Origin: Methanofollis liminatans DSM 4140 | GTDB taxonomy: Archaea; Halobacteriota; Methanomicrobia; Methanomicrobiales; Methanofollaceae | Assembly: GCF_000275865.1 (NCBI RefSeq) | Contig: NZ_CM001555.1 | Location: 62,001 to 126,000 of the forward strand | DNA: 64,000 bases | Reading direction: 5' to 3' | Shown here: positions 27,067 to 34,646 of the stretch, piece by piece | Position numbering within the stretch: the first letter of the stretch is position 1 | How the letters are laid out: every line of letters begins with the position of its first letter | The notes under the pieces: model-generated | What the model was told of the DNA's origin: nothing | Database searches by the model: none | The model's input: the letters and a program-made list of their open reading frames with translations, nothing else | Made by a program: the position numbers and the translations under genes

Positions 27067-27774
27067 CTATCGCGGCGCAAGGAGGCGGGCGGCCCGTGCC
27101 ACCCCTTTGAGCCCGCACTGGAGGAAGACGATCCCGAGCACGGCCTCGACCAGGGTGCCCTTCACGTGATCGCAATCGCCCTTCTCCACCGGCGGGTCGA
27201 AATGGACGCGGTGCTCGTACAGCCCCCAGCGGTCGCAGAGCCGCGCCATATTCACATTGCTCTCGTAGGCCTTCCGGCGCTCTGAGAGCAGCCCGGCATC
27301 GGCGAGGCGCGGGCTCCAGATCTGGGGCAGGACCCCGATCTTCAGGGCCGCATCCCCGATCCAGGCGAGGGTCTCAGCCGCTTCAGGGAGGCGGGCCATC
27401 TCTGCGAGCGCAGTCGGGGAGAGGGCGCATCTGCCGTCCCTGAAATGGGCGTTGATCTCGGAGAAGAGGTTTTTCGTGGAGGGCTGGAAGAGGGCGAGGA
27501 GGAAGATCTCGTCGTTCTCGATGGAAAAGCCGAGGTCGCGCTCGACGGCGGGCATGACCACCAACCGGACCGAACCGATCTGCCGCAGGATCTCCTCCAC
27601 CGAGGAGAGCCAGCGTGCGGTCAGGGCCTGCTCTCTCCCATCGGGGAGGGCGGCCGCCTTCCGGGCGAGCCCGTCCCTGAGGGCGGCGAGGTTCTCTTCG
27701 ACACCGACCCGGTGCCAGCGGAGCGTCTGGTGCATACGCCTTCTTCTGGACGGAAAGGGCATATCTCTTCCCAT
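27067..27774 (-). CDS. RNase III-like domain protein
   Basis: 235 residues; the start may lie slightly downstream, for example at the Met preceding HQTLRWHRV. The C-terminal half has RNase III-type blocks: AETLAWIGDAALKI (compare the family ERLEFLGDAVL), LLSERRKAYESNVNMARLCDRWGL, and KGTLVEAVLGIVFLQCGLKGVARAARLL (compare ADVFEALIGAIYLD). The Asp of GDA and the Glu of VEA are kept, while the positions of the second Glu and of the Asp before VEA are substituted (Ala and Thr). There is no double-stranded RNA-binding domain; the N-terminal ~90 residues are helical. RNA cleavage is therefore possible but uncertain. Confidence 0.6.
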   Translation of the reverse strand: MGRDMPFPSRRRRMHQTLRWHRVGVEENLAALRDGLARKAAALPDGREQALTARWLSSVEEILRQIGSVRLVVMPAVERDLGFSIENDEIFLLALFQPSTKNLFSEINAHFRDGRCALSPTALAEMARLPEAAETLAWIGDAALKIGVLPQIWSPRLADAGLLSERRKAYESNVNMARLCDRWGLYEHRVHFDPPVEKGDCDHVKGTLVEAVLGIVFLQCGLKGVARAARLLAPR

Positions 27775-28725: not shown

Positions 28726-28860
28726 TGCCCGATGAAAGACTTTTTGAGGGGATCTCACTCCCCTTATATCAGTCAACACAAACGATGTGAGACCGTAAGA
28801 GCCCGTTCCGGTTCATGGGGACGGACGCATCAAGAACATCAACAGTATGAATCGATAGTT

Positions 28861-29070
28861 ATGACGACCAGAGATCATCTTTCCGGCATGATTATCATCG
28901 ATCGTAGCCGGTGTTGTTATTGTGGAACCTGTGTAGCGACCTGTCCGAACTCAAATCTGGAATTAATCGATGCATGTCTCACGATGAACGCTGATTGCAA
29001 AAGGTGTGGGATATGTGCGAATATCTGTCCGGTCGGGGCATTGGAGGTAGTACATGAACACCGGTTATGA
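28861..29070 (+). CDS. 2[4Fe-4S] ferredoxin, probable electron donor to the adjacent reductase
   Basis: 69 residues. Two cluster motifs: [12 protein letters not shown] (with CxxCxxCxxxCP spacing) and [16 protein letters not shown]. Start at ATG 28861 or ATG 28888 (MIIIDRSRC); the second is closer to the usual ferredoxin start. Overlaps the geranylgeranyl reductase start by 17 bp. In Methanosarcina acetivorans a ferredoxin next to geranylgeranyl reductase was reported to be needed for full saturation of archaeal lipids, and the same pairing is seen here. Base composition is clearly lower in GC than the surrounding genes. Confidence 0.85.
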
Positions 29071-30277
29071 CGTGCTGGTAATCGGCGGTGGGCCCGGCGG
29101 TGCGATCGCTGCACGAACGGCTGCCGAACAGGGACTTCGAACCTGTTTAATCGAAAAAAGACCGGCTATCGGAACGCCGGTCCGGTGCGCAGAAGGAATT
29201 TGTAAACATGAGTTGTCAGAGTTCATCGAGCCCGATTATAAATGGATATCAGCAGAAATTTCACAGGCGGGGATCGTCTCACCAGATCAGACAATGATGG
29301 TTCTCGATTCATCGATAGCCGGCAGTAAAGTGGGGTATGTCCTTGAGAGAAAAATTTTCGACCGGGCTCTTGTTAACCAGGCCGCTGCTGCAGGTGCTGA
29401 CATATTCGTTAAAACCAGTGCAAAAGCTCCCATTATCACCGATGGCGTGATCAGGGGGGCCAGGATCGATGGAGGTGTCTCTCACATTCAGGCAGACGTC
29501 GTTATTGCTGCCGATGGGGTAGAGTCGCAATTCGCCAGACGGTGTGGAATCGACACTTCTGTTAAACCCGGCGATATGATGAGTTGCGCACAATATCTGC
29601 TCTCAAATATCGATATCAATCCTGCAATGAACGTATTCCACTTTGGAAACACGATCGCTCCGGGCGGATATATCTGGATCTTTCCAAAAGGTGAACGGTC
29701 AGCAAATGTCGGGGTCGGGATAGCAGGTTCTAAAAGCGGAGAGCATCATCGAGCAAAGGACTACCTTGACGCATTCGTTAAAGAAAAATTTCCAGACGGC
29801 AAAACTCTTGAACTGATTGCCGGAGGAATCCCGGTCTCCCGACCACTTGCAACAACCGTGAGCGATGGCCTGATGATCGTCGGTGATGCCGCCCGGGTCG
29901 CAGATCCCCTGACCGGAGGAGGGATCTATAATTCCATGTTTACCGGAAGGCTGGCAGGGGAAACGGCAGTCGAGTGTATTGCGAAAGGGGATTGCAGCAA
30001 GAACGCTCTTTCATCGTATGATAAAAAATGGAGAGTGTCTCCAATGGGGCAAGGATTAAACCTGAACTACAAAATCAAGGAATTTTTATACGCTCTTTCT
30101 GACGAAAAATTGAATAAACTGATGCAATCGGCGACGCGGTTAAATCTTAAAGAATTTAGCGTGCTTAATATCGTAAAGGAACTGGCTCTCAACAATCCCG
30201 GATTGCTCTGGGATATGAGGGAAATTATCCCGGAACTTTATCATCCGCCCCACCATGAGAAATCGGGGATCTCATAA
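29054..30277 (+). CDS. Digeranylgeranylglycerophospholipid reductase family (geranylgeranyl reductase)
   Basis: 407 residues. FAD-binding motif [21 protein letters not shown] with Glu at the end of strand 2, active-site [32 protein letters not shown] and [22 protein letters not shown]. The enzyme reduces the double bonds of archaeol precursors at the membrane. GGAGGT lies 6 bp before ATG 29054. Codon use (many AAA, AAT, TTA) differs from neighbours, suggesting a distinct origin for this two-gene unit. It could act on another polyprenyl group, since methanogens often have several paralogues. Confidence 0.88.
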
Positions 30278-31057: not shown

Positions 31058-31390
31058 TCACTCGTGGATCATCACGAGCAGCATCTTGAAGGGCACCCGG
31101 GCAAACAGGGCGTGCGGAATTGTTGCCGGCATGACGATCATCTCGCCGGCGGCGAGGGTGTACGGGCGGCCCCCGACGGTGATCTCCGCCTCGCCCTCCA
31201 GGACCTGGACCACCGCATCGTAGGGCGCCGTGTGCTCAGAAAGGCCCTCCCCGGCATCGAACGCAAAGGCCGTGATCGTCCCTGCCTTTTTCGTGACGAG
31301 GGCGCGGGAGACGACCGCCCCGTCCTGATAGGCCACGAGCGCCCGCGGATCGATCACCGACCCGGCGAACGCATTTTTCTTCCCTTCCAT
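31058..31390 (-). CDS. Cupin-domain protein
   Basis: 110 residues, single cupin barrel. Motif 1 is EGLSEHTAPYDAVVQVLEGEAEI; motif 2 is GEMIVMPATIPHALFARVPFKML. Of the usual metal ligands one His is seen in motif 1 (SEHTAPYD) and one in motif 2 (PHAL). Lies 72 bp downstream of the CooS homologue on the same strand, so the two may be co-transcribed. Such proteins bind small ligands or metals; the role here is unknown. Confidence 0.8.
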   Translation of the reverse strand: MEGKKNAFAGSVIDPRALVAYQDGAVVSRALVTKKAGTITAFAFDAGEGLSEHTAPYDAVVQVLEGEAEITVGGRPYTLAAGEMIVMPATIPHALFARVPFKMLLVMIHE

Positions 31391-31462: not shown

Positions 31463-33367
31463 TCAGATCCCGAGCCCATTCCTCTTTTCCTCGATATGGG
31501 CGAGGACGCCCTCCGCGGCGGCCGCCGGATCGGTTTCTAAGGCGAGCACGCCGCCGGTGATCCCCTTTAAGTCCTGCGTGAGCAGGCGGACCAGGGACGG
31601 GGCGCCGGTCACCGTCGGCACCGGGTTCACGTAGGTGTACAGCCCGTATGCCAGGGCGAAGATGGCATCGATCGTCGCCTTCTGCTCCATGTACTCGGGC
31701 GCCACGGCGGCGACCGGGAGGTCGGGGACGGCCACGCCGCCGAGCGCCTCGCCGACGGCGGCGATGAGGTCGGCAAGCCTGCCGGTGTCGGTGCAGGTGC
31801 CGAACGAGAGGACCGGCGGGACGCCGACGGCGGCGCAGACCTTCTTCAGCCCGGGCCCGGCCTTTGCGGCGGCGTCGAGGGTGCACAGCCCGGCCACCTG
31901 CATCGCCGCATTCCCGCAGCCGAGCGAGAGCACCAGGATGTCCCGTTTGATCAGCTCCTCTGCAACGGCGACCGAGTGGACGTCCTGCCCTGAGTCCCGC
32001 AGGGTCGTGCACGAGACAAGCCCGGCCACGCCCCTGATCGATCCCTCCTTTATCGCATCAAGCAGGGGGCCCAGGCTCCCCCCGAGCGCCGCCGTGATGC
32101 TCTCAGGGGAGAACCCGACCACCGCCTTCCCCACCGGCAGCCCGGCGATCGGGGTGACCCGCTCCCGGCGCTCCCTGAAGTTCGCGATGCCCATCTCCAG
32201 GAGGGCGACCGCCTGCTCCCTCGCAGATCCCGGGTCGTAGTCCATCCGGTCGGCGACGCCCTCGAAGGCGACGAGGTCTGAGACCGGGACGATCTTGAAC
32301 CCGAACCTCTCTGCATACACCGGGTCGAGCGGGAGCGAGCAGTTCATATCGGCCACGAAGACGTCGACGGCACCGGTGGCGAGCACGGCCTCCTGCATGA
32401 TCCAGTTGCCGGTGTAACCCCAGAAGACCTCGTCCATCTCCAGGCGCTGGACCATCTCCTGCCCGGTCTCGATGTTCGCGATCACCCTGATCCCCTTCGC
32501 CCCTGCTTCACGGGCCCGCTCCTGCCATTCGGGGTTCCGGGCCAGGTCCACCAGCGCGAACCCGAGGAAGGGCTCGTGGCCGTTGGGGAGGATGTTCACG
32601 TAGTCGGGGTCCAGGACGCCGAGGTCGACACGCATCCAGTGGGGCCTGGGCGTCCCGAAGAGGACGTCCTGCAGGCTTTCAAGCACCAGCTGGCTCTGGT
32701 AGGCCATCGCGATCGAAAGACGCATCGCCTTTTTCGCCAGGCTCACAAAATACCCGTCCACGTTGGTGAGAGACGACCCGGTGGCGAGCATCATCTCGCC
32801 GTAGATCCCGCCGGGAAAGATCCCGAGATTGCGCCAGACCTTCTTCCGCTCTGCCGGGGCGAGGAGATCGACGATCAGGCTCTCTTCATGGGACTTTCTG
32901 GCGAAGTCCTCCTCCAGGAATGCGCAGAGGTCCAGGGCCAGTTCGTCGGCGGGAACGGCGGTGTCGAGACCGAGGCGGGCGGCAAAATGTTTCAATTTCG
33001 CCAGATCGGCGATCCTGAAGGGCGAGGCGCCGAGGGCCGTCTCCCGCAGGGTGCGGACCGTCTGCTCGCAGTGATAGTGGTAGGTGGCCGAACCCATCAC
33101 GTTGCGCAACAGCATCATCCGCATCGCCATCCCGTCGGCCGAGATCCCGCAGACGCCGCGTTTGTCCTTCTCCGCATCGGCCCGGCAGGGGCCGTTCGAG
33201 CAGAAGTCGCACCGCACTCCCCCCATGCAGAAGCGGCAGCGCTGGTCGGGATCGGTGCCGAGGCCCTGCGCCTCGTACCGGTCCCAGACATTGGAGAGCC
33301 CCATCTCGTGGAGCTGCCTGTACACCCTCTTTACCGATTCATGGTGTGATATCCGTATATCTTCCAT
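31463..33367 (-). CDS. CooS-type carbon monoxide dehydrogenase homologue with altered C-cluster
   Basis: 634 residues from ATG 33367. B-cluster cysteines 53, 56, 61 and 73 (CDFCSNGPC...GVCG) are present. The D-cluster region is CRFC (Cys44, Cys47), with Arg where classic CooS has the second D-cluster Cys. C-cluster ligands: His in NGHEPFL, Cys in ADMNCSLP, SCTTLRDSG, SLGCGNAAM and SFGTCTDTGR are kept, as is the Lys in YMEQKA. The ICCTG motif that supplies a further C-cluster Cys reads NIETG here, with Glu300. No CooF, CooC, CooA or acetyl-CoA synthase subunit is adjacent. It may therefore be a CooS-V-like protein with another redox activity, and not a true CO dehydrogenase. Confidence 0.88.
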   Translation of the reverse strand: MEDIRISHHESVKRVYRQLHEMGLSNVWDRYEAQGLGTDPDQRCRFCMGGVRCDFCSNGPCRADAEKDKRGVCGISADGMAMRMMLLRNVMGSATYHYHCEQTVRTLRETALGASPFRIADLAKLKHFAARLGLDTAVPADELALDLCAFLEEDFARKSHEESLIVDLLAPAERKKVWRNLGIFPGGIYGEMMLATGSSLTNVDGYFVSLAKKAMRLSIAMAYQSQLVLESLQDVLFGTPRPHWMRVDLGVLDPDYVNILPNGHEPFLGFALVDLARNPEWQERAREAGAKGIRVIANIETGQEMVQRLEMDEVFWGYTGNWIMQEAVLATGAVDVFVADMNCSLPLDPVYAERFGFKIVPVSDLVAFEGVADRMDYDPGSAREQAVALLEMGIANFRERRERVTPIAGLPVGKAVVGFSPESITAALGGSLGPLLDAIKEGSIRGVAGLVSCTTLRDSGQDVHSVAVAEELIKRDILVLSLGCGNAAMQVAGLCTLDAAAKAGPGLKKVCAAVGVPPVLSFGTCTDTGRLADLIAAVGEALGGVAVPDLPVAAVAPEYMEQKATIDAIFALAYGLYTYVNPVPTVTGAPSLVRLLTQDLKGITGGVLALETDPAAAAEGVLAHIEEKRNGLGI

Positions 33368-33467: not shown

Positions 33468-34298
33468 ATGGACCAGATCGTCCGGGACCTTGTCGCCCTC
33501 GGCATGAAGGAGTACGAAGCAAAGGTGTACGCGGCCCTCGTCGGGATCGGGGAGGGGAACGCCCGTGAGATCCACATCGCAAGCGGCGTCCCCCGCCCCC
33601 GCGTCTACGACATCCTGGAGGGGCTTGCCGGGAGGGGTTTTGTCGAGGTGCGGCAGGGCTCCCCCCTCCGCTACCGCCCGGAAGAGCCCGGCGTCGTGAC
33701 GGCGAAACTCAGGGGGGCGCTCGAAGGAGCGGCCGACCGGGCGCTTGCCGGCCTCGACGAGTTGCGCCTTGAGGCGAGGCCGACGCCCGCCCCGATCTGG
33801 TACCTCGACGGGGAGTGGAGCATCCGCCGCCATCTCGAATCCCTCGTCCACGGCGACTACGCCGCCCTCACGGTCATCTGCATGCTCAGGTCAGGGCCCG
33901 GCGAGTACGCCGCCCTCCTGTCTGAGGCGGCCGGGCGGCATACCGTCGACGTGGTCGTCCCCGAAGGAGCGGCGCAGGCGTGCCCCGAAGGCGTCAGGGT
34001 CACGGTTGCCGGGGAGTTCTGCCCCTTTTTCCAGGAGAAGATCTACGGGAAGGTCTTTTCGCGCCCGATCGATCACGAGGGCTCGGTCTTCTCCCTCGAG
34101 TACATCTTCATGGCCGACGACGAGGAATCGCTGATCGTCTATACCGAGAACGGGAGGCGCAAAGGCGTGATCATCACCCTCCCGTTCATCACCTGCGTCC
34201 AGCACCAGCTCGCACGGAAGATGATCGCCGGCGGCCGTGATGCCGCCGCAGCCCCGGGCCAGAAGATATACACGGGAGAAGAGAGAGTTCACACGTAG
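33468..34298 (+). CDS. TrmB-family transcriptional regulator
   Basis: 276 residues. The N-terminal winged helix (LVALGMKEYEAKVYAALVGIGEGNAREIHIASGVPRPRVYDIL is the conserved TrmB head) is followed by a linker helix and a PLD-like effector domain from about residue 105. It diverges from the CooS homologue and is followed at 9 bp by a cupin gene, so it probably controls one or both. The inducer is unknown. Confidence 0.87.
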   Translation: MDQIVRDLVALGMKEYEAKVYAALVGIGEGNAREIHIASGVPRPRVYDILEGLAGRGFVEVRQGSPLRYRPEEPGVVTAKLRGALEGAADRALAGLDELRLEARPTPAPIWYLDGEWSIRRHLESLVHGDYAALTVICMLRSGPGEYAALLSEAAGRHTVDVVVPEGAAQACPEGVRVTVAGEFCPFFQEKIYGKVFSRPIDHEGSVFSLEYIFMADDEESLIVYTENGRRKGVIITLPFITCVQHQLARKMIAGGRDAAAAPGQKIYTGEERVHT

Positions 34299-34307
34299 GT
34301 GAGAGAA

Positions 34308-34646
34308 ATGGATGCCAGAACTGTCGGCGAACTGCCGAAGGAGAAAAACCCGCACGGCGTGGACGTCAGGAAACTTTACGACACGGAGAACGCCGTGATC
34401 GTCCACATCACCCTGCAGCCCGGCGAAGGGCTCAAACGGCACATAACCCCGGTGGACGTCGCCTTTTACGTCCTCGAAGGGCGGGGCGTCGTCGAGATCG
34501 GGGAGGAGCGGCAGGAGTGCGGCCCCGATACCCTCATCGAGAGCCCGGCCCGCATCCCGCACCGCTGGACAAACGAGAGCGACGCCCCCTTCAGGGTGCT
34601 CGTGATCAAGGTGCCGCGGCCGACCGAGTCGACGCGGCTGCTGTGA
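34308..34646 (+). CDS. Cupin-domain protein
   Basis: 112 residues. Motif 1 is GEGLKRHITPVDVAFYVLEGRGVVEIG, motif 2 is IESPARIPHRWTNESDAPFRVLVIK. ATG 34308 is chosen because GGTGAG lies just upstream; a GTG at 34299 would add three residues. Follows the TrmB-type gene by 9 bp and is presumably co-transcribed. A second cupin flanks the CooS homologue on its other side. Confidence 0.82.
   Translation: MDARTVGELPKEKNPHGVDVRKLYDTENAVIVHITLQPGEGLKRHITPVDVAFYVLEGRGVVEIGEERQECGPDTLIESPARIPHRWTNESDAPFRVLVIKVPRPTESTRLL

Follow-up and report, generated by a model that had tools for sequence, protein, structure and literature searches.

The closest described relative of the protein studied here is CooS-V of Carboxydothermus hydrogenoformans. 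It holds an Fe/S/O cluster that rearranges on reduction, contains no Ni, and shows no activity with CO or CO2 (Jeoung et al. 2022, PMC9311411). Its Cys41 binds a subunit-bridging [2Fe-2S] cluster, and its channel opens on reduction only (PMC9311411). The purified protein reduces hydroxylamine very slowly, far below HCPs, and does not reduce NO above background (PMC9311411). Its midpoint potentials lie about 300 mV below those of the Escherichia coli HCP, from which the authors inferred a different role (PMC9311411). The exchange C295E in CODH-II resulted in a Ni-deficient enzyme that had lost CO oxidation (PMC9311411). Proteins of this type fall in structural group D-1 of Ni-CODH clade D, as defined by Inoue et al. 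2019: the D-cluster is of type III, Glu replaces the first Cys, Tyr replaces the acid-base His, and the Lys is retained, with an additional Glu at the second residue upstream of it (PMC6344411). Genetic work on M. acetivorans, as cited in that article, suggests a contribution of D-1 enzymes to CO oxidation (PMC6344411). A 2026 study of the genomic context of CODH clades reported no clear pattern for clade D, suggested sensing or regulatory roles for it, and made no mention of cupins (PMC13056359).

The other relevant systems are those of HCP. Operons of hcp and frdX occur in delta-proteobacteria and clostridia (PMC1274295). In Clostridioides difficile, both genes are NO-induced direct targets of HcpR, and the knock-down of either leads to NO sensitivity (PMC12915319). 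In Desulfovibrio desulfuricans, the adjacent genes Ddes_1828 (cupin) and Ddes_1829 (hcp) make up one of the two clusters with the strongest induction by NO (PMC5701242); here Ddes_1828 is likened to our cupins by its description as a cupin, at a level above the subfamilies cupA and cupB. Methanogens have no known strong source of NO, a puzzle that has been discussed in the same terms for their HCPs (PMC10210160). We found no paper in the open-licence literature on a link between cupins and CooS-V.

The window is the whole stretch of 64,000 nucleotides that was analysed, from the methanogen Methanofollis liminatans DSM 4140. The locus of interest comprises four genes:

31058..31390, minus strand: cupA, encoding a small Cupin_2 protein; same strand as cooS-V and 72 bp downstream of it
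31463..33367, minus strand: cooS-V type gene of structural group D-1, 634 aa, annotated as an anaerobic CO dehydrogenase
33468..34298, plus strand: TrmB-family regulator, divergent from cooS-V with 100 bp between them
34299..34646, plus strand: cupB, a small Cupin_2 protein of another subfamily than cupA, directly after the TrmB gene

A sequence-only reading of this DNA had given the same frame and length for the ORF at 31463-33367, and it had also placed two cupins and a TrmB regulator beside it. We recovered all of these. No CooF, CooC-type ATPase, or ACS was found among the flanking genes, as this reading had noted. This does not amount to a lack of partners: the cupins, which the reading had recorded but not drawn upon, belong to a recurring neighbour set that is common to HCP genes (see below). 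The COG1063 dehydrogenase and HypA/HypB genes reported around group D-1 (PMC6344411) were not seen in the window. Neither cupin has the full metal motif: each retains one His from the first cupin motif together with the second motif's His. We aligned the upstream regions of the genus in search of a TrmB operator and found no conserved palindrome in them; a TATA-like stretch (AGATTTAT and similar) is present in part of the genus. The genome encodes one full-length FrdX, which is not linked to cooS-V and is 60% identical to the HCP-linked FrdX of Methanocalculus.

Some other genes of the region are worth recording. The minus-strand gene at 27067-27774 encodes, in a methanogen, a protein of 235 aa with a Ribonuclease III domain (PF00636, E-value 6.6e-11), homologues of which are also located close to cooS-V in further genomes of the genus. 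At 28732-30277 on the plus strand, a 4Fe-4S ferredoxin-like ORF overlaps the gene of a geranylgeranyl-reductase-family flavoprotein; it lies on the strand opposite to cooS-V, and nothing indicates that it is part of the CooS-V set. The plus-strand segment 34728-35825 encodes, in tandem, a YtfJ-like protein (PF09579) and a protein of the DUF2953 family, a pair that stays close to cooS-V in several genomes of the genus. These are sporulation-type or unknown families, here in an archaeon.

We then placed the 634-residue product among known families. It scores above the curated cut-off of TIGR01702 (the CODH model), also matches PF03063, and is below the cut-off of the HCP model TIGR01703 (25.2 bits for a cut-off of 360.8). 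Its top match among PDB structures is 7b7q, CooS-V of C. hydrogenoformans, with 681 bits, the next CODH having 365 bits, and the two proteins are 52% identical over the whole length. In a quick maximum likelihood tree of 66 proteins, the window-type clade has an SH-aLRT support of 100 and groups with 7b7q, itself on a long branch, with a support of 99, apart from the Ni-type CooS (98). This grouping bears out the likeness to Carboxydothermus CooS-V that the sequence-only reading had proposed. The same genome encodes a Ni-type CooS (C1:2002524-2004353), about 36-37% identical to the window protein, and a true HCP (C1:1025676-1027325). The search for CooS in a collection of plasmids returned two distant matches only.

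The residues that matter for the metal clusters, as identified by alignment, are encoded on the minus strand at the following positions:

32468..32470, minus strand: Glu300 codon, equivalent to Glu295 of CooS-V and Cys295 of CODH-II
31685..31687, minus strand: Glu561 codon, equivalent to Glu556 of CooS-V, a hybrid-cluster ligand (PMC9311411)
32576..32578, minus strand: His264 codon, cluster ligand
32339..32341, minus strand: Cys343 codon, cluster ligand
32009..32011, minus strand: Cys453 codon, cluster ligand
31916..31918, minus strand: Cys484 codon, cluster ligand
31793..31795, minus strand: Cys525 codon, cluster ligand, equivalent to the persulfide Cys521 in CooS-V
33227..33238, minus strand: Cys44-x-x-Cys47, type III D-cluster motif (PMC6344411, Table 2)
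33149..33211, minus strand: B-cluster Cys 53, 56, 61, and 73

In the alignment, NIETG of the window protein falls opposite SIESG in CooS-V and opposite the CCTG block in true CODHs. Residues H264, E300, C343, and C453 correspond to His259, Glu295, Cys338, and Cys449 of CooS-V, residues C484, C525, E561, and K563 to Cys480, Cys521, Glu556, and Lys558, and the pair C44/C47 to Cys38/Cys41. The claims of the sequence-only reading on Glu300, the four B-cluster Cys, and five C-cluster ligands (H264, C343, C453, C484, C525) were thus correct. We looked in the alignment for a Cys at the C295 position. Instead, column 300 has a Glu in 93/93 window-type relatives, which come from many phyla, and a Cys in all 28 Ni-type CooS. 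Hence, Glu300 is a marker of the group and not an oddity of one genome. Three other columns separate the 93 window-type sequences, where they are invariant, from the 28 Ni-type ones: column 561 (Glu; Ser in 25/28), column 96, the site of the acid-base His (Tyr; His in 28/28), and column 342 (Asn; Gln in 28/28). The features at E561 and Tyr96 go beyond what had been noticed before. The pair Cys44/Cys47 is invariant in the 93 sequences, and so is Arg at position 52, where 7b7q has a Ser (Ser46). The account of the D-cluster as changed was right about these three residues but incomplete, because the CxxC pair is the type III motif, i.e., another type of D-cluster and not a lost one. A sequencing error or a chance origin of the Glu codon was considered and rejected, given the Glu in 93/93 relatives.

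Judged by these residues, the window protein is of the CooS-V type and belongs to the published group D-1. All features of the group are present (type III D-cluster, Glu for the first Cys, Tyr96, K563, and Glu561), including the H/E/C/C/C/C ligands, the Tyr and Lys at the acid-base positions, and the Glu-x-Lys spacing, and we found no difference in the defining residues. All hybrid-cluster ligands of 7B7Q are shared, as are the B-cluster, the CxxC of the bridging D-cluster, and the Tyr in place of the acid-base His. The differences from 7B7Q are that the window protein is in a sister subclade, has Arg52 for Ser46, and is known from sequence alone. With the Ni-type CooS of the same genome and CODH-II, it shares the CODH fold, the B-cluster, and five of the six C-cluster ligands. 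These have a Cys at 300, a His at 96, and, in most cases, a Ser at 561, whereas the C-cluster set of Ni-CODHs (His and five Cys) is incomplete in the window protein, with Glu at 300, and their acid-base His is replaced by Tyr96. By homology with CooS-V, it is nearly certain that an Fe/S/O hybrid cluster replaces the Ni,Fe C-cluster. The family was described before (PMC9311411; group D-1 in PMC6344411), and the Glu itself is therefore not new. The core idea of the sequence-only reading, namely that this may be a redox enzyme but no CO dehydrogenase, is supported by the structure and biochemistry of CooS-V (PMC9311411). In view of the ligands, the tree, and this biochemistry, the idea is correct, and for the family as such it has been published before.

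The genomic neighbourhood provides the new part. Within the genus, CooS-V occurs in 11 genomes, and in each of them a homologue of cupA or cupB adjoins it, upstream or downstream. Outside the genus, seven Actinomycetota loci have a cupB homologue immediately upstream of CooS-V, and cupA homologues are just downstream of it in Asgard archaea, Dehalococcoidia, Methanocalculus, and Methanoregulaceae. We compared 91 CooS-V, 26 HCP, and 25 Ni-type CooS loci, with genes called heuristically by codon usage and then clustered. A cupin cluster was found within 1.5 kb in 28/91 CooS-V, 6/26 HCP, and none of the 25 Ni-type loci. Conversely, a CooC-like ATPase is close to 13/25 Ni-type CooS, to none of the 91 CooS-V, and to none of the 26 HCP. 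The CooS-V loci over-represent the subclade of the window protein, since it was the query used to retrieve them, and the sample of neighbourhoods excludes the C. hydrogenoformans subclade.

We also searched with profiles of five module families within 1.8 kb: cupA, cupB, an FrdX-type ferredoxin, an 80-residue zinc ribbon, and an 88-residue CxxC protein. At least one of them is present in 44/89 CooS-V loci, 7/20 archaeal HCP loci, and 22/35 bacterial HCP loci (29/55 for HCP as a whole), and in 0/25 Ni-type loci. About half of the CooS-V loci have no module gene within this distance. Fisher tests of CooS-V or HCP against the Ni-type loci each give a p-value of about 1e-6, which is indicative only because loci are not statistically independent. 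A stronger argument than these p-values is that the association recurs across phyla, with both cupin subfamilies, and on either flank of the gene. When profiles are built from CooS-V neighbours only, they still recover FrdX (E-values down to 3e-92) at 21 and the zinc ribbon (down to 9e-17) at 17 of the 35 bacterial HCP loci, and give a single weak ferredoxin match at Ni-type loci.

The same pattern emerges from 119 genomes of Methanomicrobia, where the chance of cupA adjacency is about 0.2% per gene and the counts of adjacency are lower bounds. There, cupA is within 1.5 kb of at least 24 of the 86 HCP genes, with 22 downstream on the same strand. It is within 1.5 kb of at least 4 of the 33 CooS-V genes and within 5 kb of at least 14 of them, all downstream on the same strand. 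Among the cupA matches listed, none is within 1.5 kb of the 57 Ni-type CooS genes. Methanocalculus chunghsingensis has one cupA behind CooS-V (locus L037) and another behind HCP (locus L163). In the tree of cupins, those linked to HCP and those linked to CooS-V are intermixed in both subfamilies, and well-supported branches require at least three switches. We did not find this neighbourhood pattern common to CooS-V and HCP in the open-licence literature.

Other neighbours are more restricted. An HxlR-family regulator (PF01638) is beside 16/20 archaeal HCP genes, mostly divergent (L163, L166-L171, L173-L182), and is a candidate regulator of HCP in these methanogens. In four WOR-3 loci (L065, L076, L083, L111), FrdX comes directly after CooS-V and a Rrf2-type regulator gene is upstream. 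Eight Methanoculleus-type loci (L044, L048, L051, L067, L072, L096, L121, L123) encode a DUF488-like protein of 114 aa just upstream of CooS-V and in the same orientation. A large protein resembling heavy-metal P-type ATPases is found downstream of CooS-V in loci of Methanolobus and Methanomethylovorans (L058, L063, L077, L080, L086, L100, L110).

We propose, with a probability of about 0.58, that the window protein is a hybrid-cluster, HCP-like reductase of low potential that is fed by FrdX, acts probably against reactive nitrogen species, and has a cupin as accessory protein. Within the CODH fold, an Fe/S/O hybrid cluster that switches with redox state would have H264, E300, C343, C453, C484, C525, and E561 as its ligands. 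As this cluster would have no Ni, the protein would not be a CO dehydrogenase. Electrons would enter through the bridging D-cluster and the B-cluster, and their donor, given the genomic context, is probably an FrdX-type ferredoxin. The reduced cluster would then bind and reduce a small oxidised molecule, for which the context points to a reactive nitrogen species as the most likely substrate. The adjacent cupin would be an accessory protein of a kind common to CooS-V and HCP. Reductase chemistry at low potential, with entry via the D- and B-clusters, is the likely part of this scheme. What our analysis itself establishes is the family, the ligands, and the shared neighbours. The literature contributes the cluster chemistry of the homologue and the response to NO of cupin-hcp and frdX-hcp operons. 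HCP and the window protein have the same cluster residues in shared columns, including Glu561, and HCP has the same neighbour families as CooS-V (cupins, FrdX, zinc ribbon, CxxC protein), a likeness that concerns function rather than family membership. Yet, the window protein belongs to a separate family, with a full-length CODH scaffold carrying D- and B-clusters, and its homologue CooS-V has much lower potentials. The main difficulty for a role against reactive nitrogen is that purified CooS-V lacks NO reduction above background and turns over hydroxylamine poorly. This inactivity may be due to the lack of the partners; otherwise, the enzyme may act in vivo on some other small oxidised molecule. 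The half of the CooS-V loci that have no module gene nearby, the unlinked FrdX of this genome, and the M. acetivorans genetics as cited in PMC6344411 also speak against the proposal.

The latter option, a hybrid-cluster reductase that uses the electron supply of HCP on a small oxidised substrate suited to its low potential instead of nitrogen oxides, is in our view unlikely, if well worth keeping in mind. The potentials of the homologue, its poor activities, and the absence of a known strong NO source in methanogens (PMC10210160) speak for it, but NO is the known trigger of the operons in which FrdX and cupin neighbours occur, and the purified enzyme was assayed without either of them. We regard it as rather improbable that the hybrid cluster stands while the cupins have no bearing on function, being common small genes that drifted beside cooS-V. 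Homologues of cupA are indeed abundant (in at least 118 of the 119 Methanomicrobia genomes), and both cupins keep only part of the usual metal motif. However, they adjoin cooS-V far more often than expected by chance, do so with both subfamilies, on either flank of the gene, and in several phyla, and were not found next to Ni-type CooS. A slightly lower likelihood still attaches to a redox or stress sensor, where the rearrangement of the cluster would signal to a regulator such as the divergent TrmB. The redox-dependent rearrangement with little turnover (PMC9311411), the roles suggested for clade D (PMC13056359), and the TrmB, PadR, and Rrf2 regulators near CooS-V loci are consistent with a sensor, but these regulators differ between lineages, most HCP genes also have a regulator beside them, and a ferredoxin partner together with a gas channel that opens on reduction fits catalysis better. 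Finally, a working or weak Ni-CODH tolerating Glu for Cys, for which one could invoke the fold, the five of six ligands, and the M. acetivorans genetics as cited in PMC6344411, is rejected as very improbable on the ligands (with Tyr for the acid-base His in 93/93), the biochemistry of CooS-V and of the C295E variant (PMC9311411), and the absence of maturation genes such as the CooC-like ATPase (0/91 CooS-V loci).

Returning to the HCP-like reductase fed by FrdX, we tentatively suggest a broader scenario, itself more doubtful than probable, where CooS-V and HCP are hybrid-cluster enzymes that evolved separately and use one accessory module made of FrdX, the cupin, the zinc ribbon, and the CxxC protein, of which the cupin would be a required and so far unrecognised component. 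Proteins of the CooS-V type are widespread and carry the annotation of CO dehydrogenase, and the context surveys that we consulted revealed other links or no clear pattern. A partner set common to HCP leads to a concrete hypothesis for them, the FrdX-fed reduction of reactive nitrogen species with the participation of a cupin. The HCP-type neighbours would be the missing partners that may explain why purified CooS-V is nearly inactive. They also make a small cupin a candidate for a component of HCP systems, and in D. desulfuricans the cupin gene beside hcp is among the most NO-induced genes (PMC5701242).
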